From assembly GCF_002941025.1 (NCBI RefSeq), contig NZ_PTJS01000001.1:6729960-6793959 (forward strand): 64,000 nt of DNA, in the 5' to 3' direction. The first letter of the stretch is position 1. Each line of letters starts with the position of its first letter. Position numbers and translations under genes: made by a program. Positions 44,660-49,721 of the stretch are shown piece after piece. Source of the DNA: Streptomyces sp. QL37 (GTDB lineage Bacteria > Actinomycetota > Actinomycetes > Streptomycetales > Streptomycetaceae). The notes beneath the pieces are model-generated. The model saw only the letters and a program-made list of their open reading frames with translations. It was not told the DNA's origin and searched no databases.

Positions 44660-46153
44660 ATGTCGATCACCCGCAGGGAATTCAGCAGACAGTCCGCCCT
44701 CACCGGTGCGGGGATAGCCCTGACCGGTGCCGTCGGCGCCCTGGCCACGGCACCCGGCGCCCTGGCCGCCGAGGACTCGCGCCACGGCCACGGGCACGGG
44801 GACGACGGCAAGGGCCACGGGCACGGGGACGACGGCAAGGGCCACGGGCACGGCAAGGAGCTGGGTTACGGGCCGCTGATCGACGACCCGAAGGGCATCC
44901 TCGCGCTGCCCGCCGGATTCTCGTACCGCGTCATCACCCACAGCGGGGTCACCAAGCTGGAGACCGGCGAGCCGACCCCCTCCAACCACGACGGCACCGC
45001 CGCCTTCGAAGGCGCCCGCGGTGTCACGCTCCTGGTCAACAACCACGAGCTGTCCGGCACCCGGGCCGGCTGGGAGTACCCCGTCCCGCTCACCGAGGGC
45101 CTCGTCTACGACCCGGTCGCGGCCGGCGGCTGCACCGTCGTCGAGACCCGTCGCGACGGCCGCACCGCCGAGTGGGTCGGCATCGCGGGCACGTCGACCA
45201 ACTGTGCCGGCGGCAGCACCGCGTGGGGCACCTGGCTCACCTGCGAGGAGACCGAGGACAAGGCCGGAAAGAACGGACTGCTCAAGGACCACGGCTACGT
45301 CTTCGAGGTCGACCCGTACGACAAGCGGGCCAACCGGGACCCGCGCCCCATCAAGGCGTTCGGCCGGTACGCCCACGAGGCGGTCGTCATCGACCCGAAG
45401 CGGGGGCACGCCTACCTGACCGAGGACGCGTCCGGCCCCAACGGCCTGCTCTACCGGTGGGTCCCGCCGCACGGCTTCAAGCACGGCCGCGGGAAGCTGC
45501 GCACCCTCGCCGACGACGCCGGCGTCCTCCAGGCCACCAAGTGCTACGACAGGAGGGGCAAGTTCGTCGACGACCTGTCCCGCGCCACGGAGATCGGCAC
45601 CGTCTACGGCGTGGACTGGGTCGACGTGCCCGACCGGGACGCGAGGACCGTCTCCGTGCGCAAGCAGTTCACCGACACCCAGGTGACCCGGGCCCGCAAG
45701 CTCGAGGGCATGTGGTGGGGCGACGGCGGCGCCTACTTCGTCTCCTCGTTCGCCCGGGACGAGAGCCCCGTGGCCCACGACGGCCAGGTCTGGTTCTACG
45801 ACCCCAAGCGCCGCACGGTCACCCTCAAGGTCCTTCTCGGCGTCAACGCCGACCCGTCGGTGGACGGCGCCTTCGACGGCCCGGACAACATCACCGTGTC
45901 CCCGTACGGCGGCATCGTCATCTCCGAGGACGGCAACGGGATCCAGCACCTCTTCGGCGCGACCGACAGCGGCCGCACCTACCCGATCGCACGCAACGAC
46001 CTCAACGCCGGCACGGAGGAGGACCCCTCCTACAGCGAGATCGCCGGGGTCACCTTCTCCCCGGACGGAAAGACGCTGTTCGCCAACATCCAGACCCCCG
46101 GCATCATGCTCGCCATCACGGGTCCGTGGAAGCGTCAGCCGGACAAGCACTGA
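44660..46153 (+). CDS. Tat-exported DUF839/PhoX-like phosphatase
   Basis: 497 residues from ATG at 44660. Twin-arginine signal 'SITRREFSRQSALTGAGIALTGAVGALATAPGALAA'. A His/Gly/Asp repeat (GHGHGDDGKGHGHGDDGKGHGHG, residues 43-66) may bind metal. The DUF839 body has 'LLVNNHELSGTRAGWEYP', 'GTSTNCAGGSTAWGTWLTCEET' with paired Cys, 'KAFGRYAHEAVVIDPKRGHAYLTEDAS', 'KLEGMWWGDGGAYFVSSF' and 'GPDNITVSPYGGIVISEDG'. These are the ligand-bearing motifs of PhoX-type enzymes, which use calcium and iron cofactors. Likely releases phosphate from organic esters outside the cell. Confidence 0.85.
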   Translation: MSITRREFSRQSALTGAGIALTGAVGALATAPGALAAEDSRHGHGHGDDGKGHGHGDDGKGHGHGKELGYGPLIDDPKGILALPAGFSYRVITHSGVTKLETGEPTPSNHDGTAAFEGARGVTLLVNNHELSGTRAGWEYPVPLTEGLVYDPVAAGGCTVVETRRDGRTAEWVGIAGTSTNCAGGSTAWGTWLTCEETEDKAGKNGLLKDHGYVFEVDPYDKRANRDPRPIKAFGRYAHEAVVIDPKRGHAYLTEDASGPNGLLYRWVPPHGFKHGRGKLRTLADDAGVLQATKCYDRRGKFVDDLSRATEIGTVYGVDWVDVPDRDARTVSVRKQFTDTQVTRARKLEGMWWGDGGAYFVSSFARDESPVAHDGQVWFYDPKRRTVTLKVLLGVNADPSVDGAFDGPDNITVSPYGGIVISEDGNGIQHLFGATDSGRTYPIARNDLNAGTEEDPSYSEIAGVTFSPDGKTLFANIQTPGIMLAITGPWKRQPDKH

Positions 46154-46227
46154 CACCCGACTGCGCGGCGCGTGGGCGAAATCCTCTCGCGCGCCGCACA
46201 GTTGTTCTCCTAGAGTCGGGGCACGCA

Positions 46228-46297
46228 CCTCCCGGTGCGAAGGCAGCGGCTACTTCCTTTCCAGAAATCACGCCGCGGCCGACCTGATCTCGGGAGG
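46228..46297 (+). ncRNA. Compact Y-RNA-like ncRNA (Ro-binding module only)
   Basis: Folds as outer stem CCTCCCG (46228-46234) / CGGGAGG (46291-46297), an internal loop GTGCGAA on one side and GACCTGATCT on the other, an inner stem GGCAGCGGC / GCCGCGGCC with one mismatch, and a 21-nt apical loop. The internal-loop sequences are nearly those of the RNA 11 bp downstream (GTGCGCA / GACTCCTGATCT), while both stems differ in sequence but keep pairing; this is covariation supporting an RNA. A -10-like TAGAGT (46211-46216) lies upstream. No tRNA-like part. Probably bound by the adjacent Ro60 protein. Confidence 0.65.
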
Positions 46298-46307
46298 CAC
46301 GAGCGCC

Positions 46308-46447
46308 GGGGTGCCCGGTGCGCAGGCGACGGATACTTCTTCGGATCCGATGGTTGCGGGTTCGAGTCCCGCCCGGCCACGGCCGGTAGCTCAATCGGAC
46401 AGAGCATCGGACCAGCACCGTCGCCGACTCCTGATCTCGGGCACCCC
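46308..46447 (+). ncRNA. YrlA-type Y RNA with permuted tRNA-like domain
   Basis: 140 nt. Outer stem GGGGTGCCCG (46308-46317) / CGGGCACCCC (46438-46447), Ro-type internal loop, inner stem GGCGACGG / CCGTCGCC. Then a tRNA-like domain in permuted order: anticodon-like arm GGATCCGATG / CATCGGACC, a T arm GCGGG-TTCGAGT-CCCGC (46356-46372), an acceptor-like stem CCGGCC/GGCCGG closed by a tiny loop, and a D arm GCTC-AATCGGACA-GAGC. This is the architecture reported for YrlA RNAs, which mimic tRNA and tether Ro to partners such as PNPase. It lies 41 bp before a Ro60/TROVE gene. Confidence 0.8.
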
Positions 46448-46488
46448 TACTTCGCTGTGTCCTCCTCCATGAATTCGGGGGAATTCAC

Positions 46489-48069
46489 ATGGCACGCTTC
46501 AACACCCGCTCCGCCCGGCCCCGCGTCACCTCGCCCGTGAAGTCCACCGGGCGTACCGCGCGCAACCACCAGGGCGCCCTCGGACATCTCCGCGACAGCC
46601 GGTCCGAACTCTTCCTGCTCGCGGTCGCCGACTTCGTCTCGCAGGAGACCTTCCACGAGGGCGGCGAAGAGCGCGACACCCGTTTCGCCACGCTGGTGCG
46701 GACGCTCGCCGTCGAGGACCCGGAGTGGACGGCGGGGCTGCTGCGCTGGCTGCGCACCGAGGCACAGATGCGTACGGCCTCGGTCGTCGGCGCCGCCGAG
46801 TACGTGAAGGCGCGGCTCGAAGCCGGCGCGCAGGACGGCCCGTCCAACCGGCGGGTCGTCGACTCCGTGCTGCTGCGCCCGGACGAGCCCGGTGAGCTGC
46901 TCGGATACTGGACCTCGCGCTACGGCCGGGCCGTGCCCAAGCCGGTCAAGCGCGGGATCGCCGACGCCGTGCGCCGGCTCTACAGCGGCAGGACGCTGCT
47001 GAAGTACGACACGGCGTCCAAGGGCTACCGCTTCGGCGACGTACTCAACCTGGTCCACGCCGCGCCCGACCCCGAAAAGCCCTGGCAGGGGGATCTGTTC
47101 CGGTACGCCCTGGACCGCAGGCACCACCCCGAGGACGCCGTGGCGCCCGCGTCGGACCGCACGCTGACCGCCCACCGGGCGCTGACGGCGCTGCCCGTCG
47201 CCGAGCGCCGTTCCGTGATCACCGGGCCCGGTGGTGCGGACCGGCTGGCCGAGGCGGGCATGACCTGGGAGGCGCTGGCGGGCTGGCTCCAGGGGCCGAT
47301 GGACGCCGCGGCCTGGGAGGCCGTGATCCCGTCCATGGGCGCGATGGCGCTCGTCCGCAACCTTCGCAACTTCGACGAGGCGGGCGTGTCGGACGAGGTC
47401 GCGGCCGGGGTGGCGGCGAGGATCAGCGACCCGGAGGCGGTCGCCGCCTCGCGGCAGTTCCCCTTCCGCTACCTCGCGGCGTACCAGCACGCGCCGTCGC
47501 TGCGGTGGTCCTACCCGCTGGAGCGGGCCCTCGCGCACTCGCTGGGCAACGTCCCCGCGCTGCCCGGCCGCACCCTGGTCCTCGTCGACCGGTCCGGCTC
47601 GATGTGGTCGCCGCTCTCCGACCGCTCGCTCCTGAACCGGGCCGACGCCGCGGCGGTCTTCGGCGCGGCGCTGGCGCTGCGGGCCGCGGACGCCGATCTG
47701 GTGCAGTTCGGCACGGGCAGCGGGCAGGTGGAGTGCCGCAGGGGCGAGTCCGTACTGAAGATCCTGGAACGCTTCGGCAACCTGGGCGGCACCAATACGG
47801 TGCAGGCGGTACGCAAGCACTACCGCGGGCACGACCGGGTGCTGATCGTCACCGACGAGCAGGCGTCGTTCACGCACTACGGGGACGCCACCGAGGGCAT
47901 CCCGCCGACCGTGCCCGTGTACACCTGGAACCTGGCCGGGTACCGGGTCGGGCACGGGCCGTCGGGAAGCGAGAACCGCCACACCTTCGGGGGTCTTTCC
48001 GACGCGGCGTTCCGCATGGTGCCCCTGCTGGAAGCGGGCAGGAGCGCGGACTGGCCCTGGAACCGCTGA
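46489..48069 (+). CDS. Ro60/TROVE-domain RNA-binding protein (Rsr)
   Basis: 526 residues from ATG at 46489. The N-terminal two-thirds is the TROVE HEAT-repeat ring ('SRSELFLLAVADFVSQETFHEGGEERDTRFATLVRTLA', 'RLYSGRTLLKYDTASKGYRFGDVLNLVHAAP'). The C-terminal part is a von Willebrand A domain with the MIDAS motif 'LVLVDRSGSMWSPLSDRS' near residue 365 and 'GNLGGTNTVQAVRKHY' near 430. Ro60 binds Y RNAs and the ends of misfolded RNAs, and in bacteria acts in RNA decay and stress survival. The two Y RNAs just upstream are its probable partners. Confidence 0.95.
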   Translation: MARFNTRSARPRVTSPVKSTGRTARNHQGALGHLRDSRSELFLLAVADFVSQETFHEGGEERDTRFATLVRTLAVEDPEWTAGLLRWLRTEAQMRTASVVGAAEYVKARLEAGAQDGPSNRRVVDSVLLRPDEPGELLGYWTSRYGRAVPKPVKRGIADAVRRLYSGRTLLKYDTASKGYRFGDVLNLVHAAPDPEKPWQGDLFRYALDRRHHPEDAVAPASDRTLTAHRALTALPVAERRSVITGPGGADRLAEAGMTWEALAGWLQGPMDAAAWEAVIPSMGAMALVRNLRNFDEAGVSDEVAAGVAARISDPEAVAASRQFPFRYLAAYQHAPSLRWSYPLERALAHSLGNVPALPGRTLVLVDRSGSMWSPLSDRSLLNRADAAAVFGAALALRAADADLVQFGTGSGQVECRRGESVLKILERFGNLGGTNTVQAVRKHYRGHDRVLIVTDEQASFTHYGDATEGIPPTVPVYTWNLAGYRVGHGPSGSENRHTFGGLSDAAFRMVPLLEAGRSADWPWNR

Positions 48070-48148: not shown

Positions 48149-48379
48149 ATGAAACAGTCAGCCGGTTCCCGGCGTCACCTGCCTTCCAGTCCCTTCAACC
48201 GCCCGGCCCAGGCGGCCCCACCGGTCGAATGCTTCGATGTGGGCGACAGGGTGTCGCACGACCAGTTCGGACTCGGCCGAGTCCTCGCTGTCGAGGGCGA
48301 CAACGACGCAGTGCTCATCGACTTCTCGGGGCGACAGGGGAGGATCCTGAGCCCGTACTCCAAGCTGACCAAGCTCTGA
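48149..48379 (+). CDS. Small protein with PcrA/UvrD C-terminal (Tudor-like) domain
   Basis: 76 residues. 'FDVGDRVSHDQFGLGRVLAVEGDNDAVLIDFSG' followed by 'RILSPYSKLTKL' matches the Tudor-like domain that ends PcrA/UvrD helicases and contacts RNA polymerase. The first 28 residues are a basic, Pro/Ser-rich tail. May bind RNA polymerase or nucleic acid; inference only. Confidence 0.75.
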   Translation: MKQSAGSRRHLPSSPFNRPAQAAPPVECFDVGDRVSHDQFGLGRVLAVEGDNDAVLIDFSGRQGRILSPYSKLTKL

Positions 48380-48488: not shown

Positions 48489-49721
48489 CTACAGGGCCTT
48501 CGCGGCGGGCTTGACCATGCCGCGGACGGTCCGGGACTTCACGAACTCGCCCATTCCGGTCATCTCCCACTCGCCGGAGAACTGCTTGATCAGCTTGGCC
48601 ATCATCACGCCGGTCTGCGGCTCCGCGCCGGTCAGGTCGAAGCGGACCAGCTCCTCGCCGGTGCCCGCGTCGATCAGCCGGCAGTAGGCCTTGGCGACCT
48701 CGGTGAACTTCTGCCCGGTGAACGAGTTGACCGTGAAGACCAGGCCGGTCGCGTCCGCGGGGATCCGGCCCAGATCGACGACGATCACCTCGTCGTCGCC
48801 CGCGCCCTCGCCCGTGAGGTTGTCGCCGGAGTGCTTGATGGCGCCGTTCAGGATGGAGAGCTTGCCGAAGTAGCAGCTGTCCAGGTGATTGCGGTTGGGG
48901 CCGAAGGCGATCACCGAGGCGTCGAGGTCGATGTCCTTGCCACGGAACGCGGGCTCCCAGCCGAGGCCCATCTTGACCTGCGAGAGCAGCGGCTTGCCGC
49001 CCTTGACCAGGGACACGGTCTGGTTCTTCTGGAGGCTGATCCGGCCCTTGTCGAGGTTGATCTTGCCGGAGCCGGCGGGCGCCGGCGGTGCGGGCGGCGC
49101 CGCGGGGGCCGGCGGCGCGATCCGCGGGTCGACGGGTGCGGCGGCCGGGGGAGCCATCGGCGGAGCGGCGGGCGGTGCGACGGGTGCGGCGGCAGGGGCG
49201 GGTGCCGCCGCCGGGGCGGGCTCCTCCACCGAGACGCCGAAGTCCGTGGCGATGCCCGCCAGTCCGTTCGCATAGCCCTGGCCGACCGCGCGGGCCTTCC
49301 AGGCGCCGTTGCGCAGGTAGATCTCGATGACCACCAGCGCCGTCTCGCCGCCCAGCTGCGGCGGAGTGAACGTGGCGAGCGCGCTGCCGTCGTCCGCGTT
49401 GCGCACGGTGGCGGTGGGCTCCACACCGCGGAAGGTCTGGCCCGCGGCGTCGGGGCTCGCCGTGACCACGATCTTCTCGATGCCCGGGGGGACCGCGGTG
49501 GTGTCCACCACGATCGCGTCGGGCGCCGACCCGCCGCCCGAGCGGTAGGTCACGCCGGGGCCCGAGGGCTGGTTGTAGAAGATGAAGTCGTCGTCGGAGC
49601 GCACCTTGCCGTCGGCGGTGAGCAGCAGGCCCGAGACGTCGAGCCGCACCGGGGCGGCGACGTCCACCGCCACGCGGGCGGCGGAGAGAGGGATGTTCGA
49701 GCCGGGGGTCATTGCGGTCAT
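48489..49721 (-). CDS. TerD-TerD fusion, tellurium-resistance family
   Basis: 410 residues. Two TerD domains: residues 10-165 ('SGLLLTADGKVRSDDDFIFYNQPSGPGVTYRSG' ... 'ALVVIEIYLRNGAWKARAVGQGYANGLAGIATDFGV') and 230-405 ('INLDKGRISLQKNQTVSLVKGG' ... 'GDNLTGEGAGDDEVIVVDL'). About 60 residues of Ala/Pro linker separate them. The Asp-rich calcium-binding stretches (DDDF; GDDE) are kept. TerD proteins bind calcium and act in stress, phage and tellurite defence. Start ATG at 49721 has no clear ribosome site; ATG 49712 is an alternative. No other ter genes are near. Confidence 0.9.
   Translation of the reverse strand: MTAMTPGSNIPLSAARVAVDVAAPVRLDVSGLLLTADGKVRSDDDFIFYNQPSGPGVTYRSGGGSAPDAIVVDTTAVPPGIEKIVVTASPDAAGQTFRGVEPTATVRNADDGSALATFTPPQLGGETALVVIEIYLRNGAWKARAVGQGYANGLAGIATDFGVSVEEPAPAAAPAPAAAPVAPPAAPPMAPPAAAPVDPRIAPPAPAAPPAPPAPAGSGKINLDKGRISLQKNQTVSLVKGGKPLLSQVKMGLGWEPAFRGKDIDLDASVIAFGPNRNHLDSCYFGKLSILNGAIKHSGDNLTGEGAGDDEVIVVDLGRIPADATGLVFTVNSFTGQKFTEVAKAYCRLIDAGTGEELVRFDLTGAEPQTGVMMAKLIKQFSGEWEMTGMGEFVKSRTVRGMVKPAAKAL

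Follow-up and report, generated by a model that had tools for sequence, protein, structure and literature searches.

Two tandem Y RNAs upstream of a Ro60/Rsr gene in Streptomyces sp. QL37, one with a permuted tRNA module

Introduction

The genome of Streptomyces sp. QL37 encodes a TROVE-domain protein, an orthologue of Ro60/Rsr, directly behind two short structured elements on the same strand. Are these elements bacterial Y RNAs, and what might the tRNA-like part of the second one do? The roles of Y RNAs, Rsr, YrlA and PNPase have been described in the available portions of PMC8394870 and PMC7790460. YrlA is an established circularly permuted tRNA mimic, according to the available portions of PMC7790460 and PMC11472068. 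The locus lies in a window of 64,000 nucleotides (contig NZ_PTJS01000001.1, positions 6,729,960 to 6,793,959), which is the whole stretch of DNA that was analysed; coordinates below are those of the window.

The two elements, here called RNA B and RNA C, are very probably the Y RNAs of the adjacent TROVE/Rsr protein, the best explanation of the locus as a whole. Direct support comes from their positions, their structure as seen by covariation, their co-occurrence with TROVE genes and a promoter-like signal.

The window locus

The descriptor used to find these RNAs combines a closing stem of at least five pairs, GTGYG, NNNCT before the returning strand and a TACTTC-like motif. On both strands of the 64 kb it has only two matches, 46228-46297 (B) and 46308-46447 (C). 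The tandem pair upstream of Ro60 that the initial annotation proposed is present, and it precedes the TROVE gene. The features of the locus are as follows.

46211-46216, + strand: -10-like hexamer TAGAGT before RNA B, candidate promoter
46228-46297, + strand: RNA B, compact Y RNA, 70 nt (descriptor, R1 model, covariation)
46228-46234 and 46291-46297, + strand: B outer stem, CCTCCCG / CGGGAGG
46235-46241 and 46281-46290, + strand: B internal loop, GTGCGAA opposite GACCTGATCT
46242-46250 and 46272-46280, + strand: B inner stem, GGCAGCGGC / GCCGCGGCC, one mismatch
46251-46256, + strand: B motif TACTTC
46308-46447, + strand: RNA C, Y RNA on the YrlA plan, 140 nt (Rfam RF02553, R2 model, covariation)
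46308-46317, + strand: C outer stem, 5' strand, followed by GTGCG of the internal loop (46318-46322)
46325-46332 and 46418-46425, + strand: C inner stem, GGCGACGG / CCGTCGCC
46334-46339, + strand: C motif TACTTC
46346-46350, + strand: C anticodon-like stem, tRNA 3' strand, paired with 46407-46411
46356-46372, + strand: C T arm, GCGGG-TTCGAGT-CCCGC
46373-46386, + strand: C acceptor-like hairpin, CCGGCC-AC-GGCCGG, linking the tRNA 3' end to the 5' end
46389-46405, + strand: C D arm, GCTC-AATCGGACA-GAGC
46407-46411, + strand: C anticodon-like stem, tRNA 5' strand
46433-46437, + strand: GATCT of the C internal loop, in which GTGCGCA lies opposite GACTCCTGATCT
46438-46447, + strand: C outer stem, 3' strand
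46471-46486, + strand: palindrome GAATTC-GGGG-GAATTC (GAATTCGGGGGAATTC), overlapping the ribosome-binding region of the TROVE gene
46489-48069, + strand: TROVE-domain protein, 526 aa, Ro60/Rsr orthologue (PF05731, solved TROVE proteins)

The GTGCG / GATCT internal loop is common to B and C, in agreement with the asymmetric shared loop described initially. RNA B scores 87.7 bits with the compact model R1, whose training set includes B. Its apical loop has neither T arm nor tRNA module, so it is a compact Y RNA and not a YrlA. It has the stem-loop signature of its YrlA-plan neighbour, adjacency to rsr and covariation, as expected of a compact Y RNA.

RNA C is a circularly permuted tRNA module within a Y RNA. 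It scores 150.2 bits with model R2 (training set including C), and the Rfam YrlA model RF02553 matches it at 46326-46427 (E 2.7e-14, 63.2 bits). Together with the order of the arms, this match bears out the earlier assignment to the YrlA plan. C lies beside the TROVE gene and combines a long, interrupted terminal stem with a permuted tRNA-like domain. Both halves of its module are nearest to tRNA-Lys (48 vs 38 for the next isotype).

The Rfam cut-off for YrlA is 69 bits, and a default Rfam scan is therefore empty at C. At the gathering threshold no Rfam family matches in the window; no RNA of 20 named streptomycete TROVE loci passes the YrlA cut-off, and none does in the 296 genomes of the phylum sample under stricter filters. 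C is for this reason called a Y RNA on the YrlA plan rather than a member of the Rfam family by Rfam's own standard. Routine annotation would accordingly miss such RNAs in a heavily sequenced genus, as had been predicted. No vertebrate Y RNA family is among the Rfam matches listed for the window.

Other readings of the interval were rejected. True tRNA genes at B and C were dismissed, ARAGORN finding none in the window. Protein-coding overlap (ORFs at 46235-46540 on the + strand and 46116-46418 on the - strand) was set aside, conservation tracking RNA structure. Chance hairpins were rejected in view of the covariation, the co-occurrence and the specificity of the descriptor.

Folding and covariation

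Folding of single sequences is weak, with z -1.04 for a piece of B and z -2.24 for a piece of C. The YrlA-type fold of C (-61.8 kcal/mol) lies 7.7 kcal/mol above the computed minimum of -69.5 kcal/mol. The structure was examined by covariation in alignments of homologues, including those of RNA A, the first RNA of many arrays in relatives. Alignment A1 holds 60 of the 124 distinct compact RNAs, picked for diversity. The 38-sequence alignments A2 (38 of 85) and A3 (38 of 78) were picked for diversity and then trimmed by eye.

Among 60 compact homologues of B, 92.6% of cells are paired, 11 of 16 pairs show two-sided change, and the covariation score is 0.191 against 0.073 in shuffled alignments. 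The 38 class I homologues of C have 93.0% of cells paired, two-sided change in 18 of 30 pairs, and a score of 0.243 against 0.107. RNA A (38 sequences) is paired in 97.4% of cells, with two-sided change in 18 of 35 pairs. None of 500 shuffles reaches the observed values in the B, C or A set, and the paired fraction falls to 35-51% in slid controls. The initial annotation held that the stems differ in sequence and keep their pairing, and named a lack of stem covariation in other streptomycetes as the result that would speak against it. Covariation was found in both sets, and the claim stands.

The helices of C are unequally kept. Helices 1 and 2 are paired in 97.7% and 92.4% of cells of the 38 homologues. 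The anticodon-like stem (helix 3) is the worst kept, with 76.6%, and its pair adjoining the D arm is mostly broken. Without an imposed structure, RNAalifold recovers the Y stems in the B, C and A sets. In the C set it also predicts the T and D arms unprompted, and it finds neither the anticodon-like stem nor the acceptor, whose columns are misaligned there. In the RNA A set it recovers the entire cloverleaf, with all four arms (anticodon, T, acceptor, D).

Co-occurrence with TROVE genes and array layouts

A TROVE match is present in 39 of 61 Streptomyces genomes, leaving 22 without. Y RNAs of the B/C type occur in all 39 TROVE-positive genomes and in none of the 22 TROVE-negative ones. Model R1, in which one base pair is shifted by one column, matches in 37 genomes, all TROVE-positive; in G038 and G041 the R1 match (~50 bits) lies only beside a divergent TROVE paralogue. 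G044 and G059, TROVE-positive and without an R1 match, have full-length R2 matches. In the 22 TROVE-negative genomes R1 has no match under Infernal's stricter filters. There R2 gives a single partial match in 16 genomes, covering model positions 18-115 or 29-110 with no more than 49 bits, and none in six. Some of these genomes also contributed to the training of R1 and R2. The presence of matches in TROVE-positive genomes is thus in part guaranteed by the models, and only their absence from TROVE-negative genomes counts as independent.

Partial R2 matches were checked in one TROVE-negative genome (L287) and two TROVE-positive ones (L288, L095), and all span two tandem tRNA-Asn genes. YrlA-type models read the junction of such genes as a permuted tRNA, which produces false matches at these three loci. 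These lower-scoring matches favor the idea that C is itself a decayed tandem tRNA gene pair whose junction reads as a permuted tRNA, as do sub-threshold Rfam YrlA matches in controls without a TROVE match, e.g., E. coli. C, however, is closed by Y stems, contains internal loops and covaries. Its score is 150 bits, that of the partial matches at most 49, and it has neither an anticodon loop nor mature tRNA ends. This makes the decayed pair a highly improbable account of C. It may explain the origin of the module rather than its present role, and a tandem tRNA-Asn junction is a plausible evolutionary origin.

At the 80 named TROVE loci, at least one such RNA is found every time, and the matches listed there at E <= 0.01 precede TROVE and share its strand. 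Layouts were assigned from the descriptor and the models combined. They are A-B-C in 45 loci, B-C in 22, a YrlA-type followed by a compact RNA in 6, a YrlA-type RNA alone in 2 and a compact RNA alone in 5. B precedes C in 67 of the 80, and the available portion of PMC7790460 describes a comparable pair in Salmonella rsr-yrlBA, so the initial view that it is unusual for a compact RNA to neighbour a YrlA-type one is not upheld. The window strain has the B-C layout without RNA A. No A-type RNA was found elsewhere in its genome, where R2 matches nothing besides C and one junction of tandem tRNA genes. The window pair would correspond to the last two members of the A-B-C array found in most named relatives.

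Arrays of four RNAs were found with the descriptor in five loci (L164-L168) of another family of the class scan, f19, in which 10 genomes have TROVE. The TROVE protein of L167 is identical, over the aligned part, to the TROVE protein of Microbispora catharanthi (Streptosporangiaceae). By eye, the third RNAs of L164, L165, L167 and L168, as well as L273 and L053, carry modules of T arm and acceptor; L271 and L132 carry the T arm only.

Variants of the TROVE gene itself were also observed. Several Streptomyces have second TROVE paralogues (L125-L129), each with a single compact RNA in which GATGCG replaces GGTGCG. Two actinobacterial TROVE proteins (P0128, P0181) contain Pfam domains of LAGLIDADG homing endonucleases.

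The TROVE gene and the promoter-like site

The TROVE protein matches PF05731 over residues 272-332 only (E 5.8e-13, 49.2 bits, cut-off 23). It also matches the solved TROVE proteins 9l5y/9kop in two stretches, the best over residues 250-518 (E 1.5e-28). No NCBIfam model matches this protein. Downstream are a small CarD/PcrA-tudor-like ORF and a TerD-family gene (48149-48379 and 48489-49721, - strand).

The TAGAGT hexamer before RNA B has counterparts in relatives. In 40 of 77 named loci a TANAGT hexamer lies no more than 40 nt from the first RNA; the corresponding count for background stretches from the same loci is 7 of 1360. In 41 of the 77, a TANNNT hexamer starts 19 nt ahead of GTG, a position 13 nt ahead of GTCCAG in RNA A. 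B and C would most likely be transcribed from this promoter-like site, perhaps as the leader of the rsr transcript. Further upstream, a very stable hairpin at 46158-46205 (z -4.44) follows a PhoX-family gene and is probably its terminator.

The two RNAs could instead be nothing more than a structured 5' leader of the rsr mRNA, one that regulates the gene in cis by responding to Rsr or tRNA-binding factors and yields no stable RNAs of its own. Their place directly before rsr on its strand fits such a leader. So does the palindrome over the ribosome-binding region, a possible regulatory hairpin of which 56 of 80 named loci have an identical or nearly identical copy. Against it, copy number and order vary between loci, and related RNAs lie far from TROVE genes, e.g., at metK-priA, in TROVE-positive genomes. 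A role confined to the leader is therefore quite unlikely, and the Y RNA reading is retained.

RNA A of relatives

RNA A appears to be a permuted cloverleaf that is complete, its anticodon-type loop 7 nt long, and as such looks new. Of 81 A-type RNAs, 73 have an arm of 4-5 pairs that closes a 7-nt loop between TACTTC and the T arm; a 5-nt variable region comes next in 70 of them. The same search matches 42 of 125 other YrlA-type RNAs, mostly with unrelated loops; by eye, 11 of these 42 have CTNNNAA loops. The anticodon-type stem of RNA A covaries (CCA/TGG, CGA/TCG, CCG/CGG).

The loop letters of the 73 RNAs are C32 in 72, U33 in 71, U36 in 68, A37 in 59 and A38 in 71, counted by a looser search than that of the isotype comparison below. 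The commonest triplets are CAU (22), CUU (16), GUU (11) and GAU (9), mostly those of tRNAs that read ANN codons. ANN-decoding tRNAs carry t6A37.

On the TROVE tree, built with FastTree only, positions 34, 35 and 37 of the loop require 23, 29 and 13 changes. Positions 33, 36 and 38 require 0, 4 and 1, and the median column requires 2. Free columns of the D loop and acceptor loop change as fast as 34 and 35, so the pattern indicates constraint on a tRNA-like context with freedom at 34-35 rather than positive selection. Hypervariability of the anticodon was for the same reason rejected as proof of an arms race.

The triplet matches the isotype nearest to the D-arm half in only 4 of 75 RNA A, in a comparison whose search pattern prescribed positions 32, 33 (T or A) and 39-41 of the loop, so that only 34-38 are unbiased. 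RNA A was rejected as a functional permuted tRNA gene, given the freely changing triplet and, by eye, no consistent CCA after the acceptor.

Body switching in RNA C

The tRNA-like body of RNA C differs between relatives. Of 130 TROVE rows, 79 have a class I body, 15 one of leucine type, 8 one of initiator type and 6 some other body; in the remaining 22, C is absent or was not found. Outside the named loci the types were assigned with the descriptor alone; within them, four C positions were filled in by hand from covariance-model matches, and L210 was counted as class I.

The 5' half of the leucine type is nearest to tRNA-Leu in 15 of 15 (mean margin 8.8) and that of the initiator type to fMet in 8 of 8 (mean margin 3.2), calls that are partly built in because the types are defined by D-arm motifs. 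With both halves together, the leucine type is nearest to tRNA-Leu in 15 of 15, and with the 3' half alone in 6 of 15. Both halves of the initiator type give fMet in 5 and Asp in 3, and this type is tentative. Leave-one-out on real tRNA halves recovers the isotype in 34 of 56, and since the types are also D-arm-defined, isotype calls for class I, Glu and Ser/Tyr bodies are likewise tentative.

The leucine type is accompanied by a longer segment before the T arm, with a median of 26 vs 16 nt (p 9e-8, relatedness not controlled). This segment can form a hairpin of at least 4 pairs in 13 of 15 and of at least 6 pairs in 9 of 15. Over 300 rounds of shuffling, the means are 7.2 and 0.9 and the maxima 11 and 4. 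Variable-loop lengths of class I are unreliable and were left out. One leucine-type RNA C (L193, 1253-1446) has an acceptor loop enlarged by repeats resembling GTGTCAGAATTC.

The D arm and variable arm flank the T/acceptor hairpin on opposite sides. In the relatives L057, L059 and L150 this hairpin differs at one base and both flanks are replaced; it differs more in other pairs of relatives. The leucine type is confined to one set of 48 rows, yet it requires 10 changes on the tree, 8 of these forced by well-supported branches. The initiator type requires 7 (3 forced), and its clustering is unclear, 68 of 500 shuffled labelings being as low. Repeated conversion and allele exchange between species both fit this switching. 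A single tRNA as the source of class I modules was rejected: among last-position modules, 26 of 89 have halves of matching isotype (shuffled mean 13.5), and among first-position modules only 6 of 76 do (shuffled 8.6), relatedness not being controlled.

Y RNAs away from TROVE genes

One or two Y RNAs lie beside priA in 6 of 39 TROVE-positive genomes (L279-L283, L286), and between priA and metK where both genes are seen. Pfam identifies PriA in L280, L282 and L283 and S-adenosylmethionine synthetase in L280, L283 and L286. Other priA and metK assignments rest on motifs, and the metK ORF of L282 is itself not listed.

Ser/Tyr-like D arms occur in L279-L281 and Glu-like bodies, at other places, in L274, L275 and L277. 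The unlinked Y RNAs of L280 and L281 have a strong variable-arm hairpin. By eye, those of L279 and L281 appear to hold a short local anticodon hairpin after the D arm, which is a different breakpoint. A DNA search with the metK-priA RNAs of L279 found matches in 14 of 61 genomes; except in G040, G024, G013 and G049, these are mostly TROVE arrays.

Proposed function

By analogy with known Y RNAs, each RNA may bind the Rsr ring through its closed outer stem and the conserved GTGCG/GATCT loop. The permuted module of C would fold like a tRNA elbow and be seen by tRNA-modifying enzymes. As for YrlA, it may contribute to tethering or gating a partner, for example the exonuclease PNPase. B has no such module and would serve simply as a ligand of Rsr or as a gate.

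If the elements are Y RNAs, their modules may instead be decoys that titrate tRNA-specific enzymes or anticodon nucleases. Modules change tRNA type between close relatives and RNA A has an anticodon-type loop, as decoys might, and a competitive-inhibitor idea is voiced for Salmonella YrlA in the available portion of PMC7790460. Loop positions 34/35, which anticodon-specific nucleases would read, change however like other free positions, and neutral drift explains this. The C of the window has no anticodon loop at all, and according to the available portion of PMC7790460 no YrlA fragments were found after tRNA cleavage. Decoys are thus unlikely, and PNPase tethering is kept as the suggested role of the module in C.

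A joint reading of the relatives, for which the evidence is evenly balanced, is that the Y RNA arrays of actinobacterial Ro60 loci carry an exchangeable permuted tRNA domain, with mimicry in RNA A, switching in RNA C and selection on tRNA architecture. The modules would form a series from none (B) through T arm and T arm plus acceptor to the full cloverleaf. RNA A would mimic a whole tRNA, with a 5-bp anticodon arm, a 7-nt loop and the U36-A37-A38 context of the ANN/t6A type. RNA C would be of class I, of leucine type with a matching class II variable arm, or of initiator type, and additional copies at other genomic places would be Ser/Tyr- and Glu-like. If true, these Y RNAs would be substrates or decoys of tRNA-handling enzymes. 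Streptomycete arrays offer a natural series, often side by side, of no, minimal, open-anticodon, complete and class II modules. Such a series could separate the needs for Rsr binding, RNA modification, PNPase and tRNA-cleavage effects.

Comparison with known systems

In the open subset of the literature searched, no Y RNA was found described with a complete anticodon arm or a class II body. A search of the same kind for Ro60 Y RNAs in Streptomyces, for YrlA with permuted tRNA or actinobacteria, and for the vertebrate Ro60-binding motif found nothing relevant. In 2014, Chen et al. reportedly had such RNAs from more than 250 species, so streptomycete members may already be listed there. The cloverleaf of RNA A, the body switching of RNA C and the Y RNAs elsewhere, e.g., at metK-priA, look new.

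Like YrlA (RF02553; structure 6CU1), C lies beside a Ro60/Rsr orthologue and has a closed terminal stem. Its T arm is likewise followed by the acceptor and then the D arm, and its anticodon-like stem opens out into the Y stem. Unlike YrlA, C falls below the Rfam cut-off, as do all RNAs of the 20 named loci. RNA A of relatives differs from the RF02553 consensus structure by its closed anticodon-type arm, and RNA C of relatives can differ from YrlA in being of leucine or, tentatively, initiator type.

Vertebrate Y RNAs also have a Ro60-like partner. The GGTGCGA / TTGATC loop resembles the vertebrate Ro60-binding motif, GGUCCGA / UUGACC. Vertebrate Y RNAs are without the tRNA module of C.

The proposed working mode resembles the Deinococcus radiodurans complex of Rsr, Y RNA and PNPase (RYPER), as given in the available portions of PMC8394870 and PMC7790460. 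Here, tethering by the tRNA-like domain is suggested by analogy. In Salmonella, YrlB and YrlA stand in tandem with rsr in an rsr-yrlBA-rtcBA operon (PMC7790460, available portion). Unlike there, both RNAs of the window precede rsr, and the next gene families found after it are a CarD/PcrA-tudor-like ORF and TerD. The window pair is of a known kind, two tandem bacterial Y RNAs with rsr as in Salmonella rsr-yrlBA.
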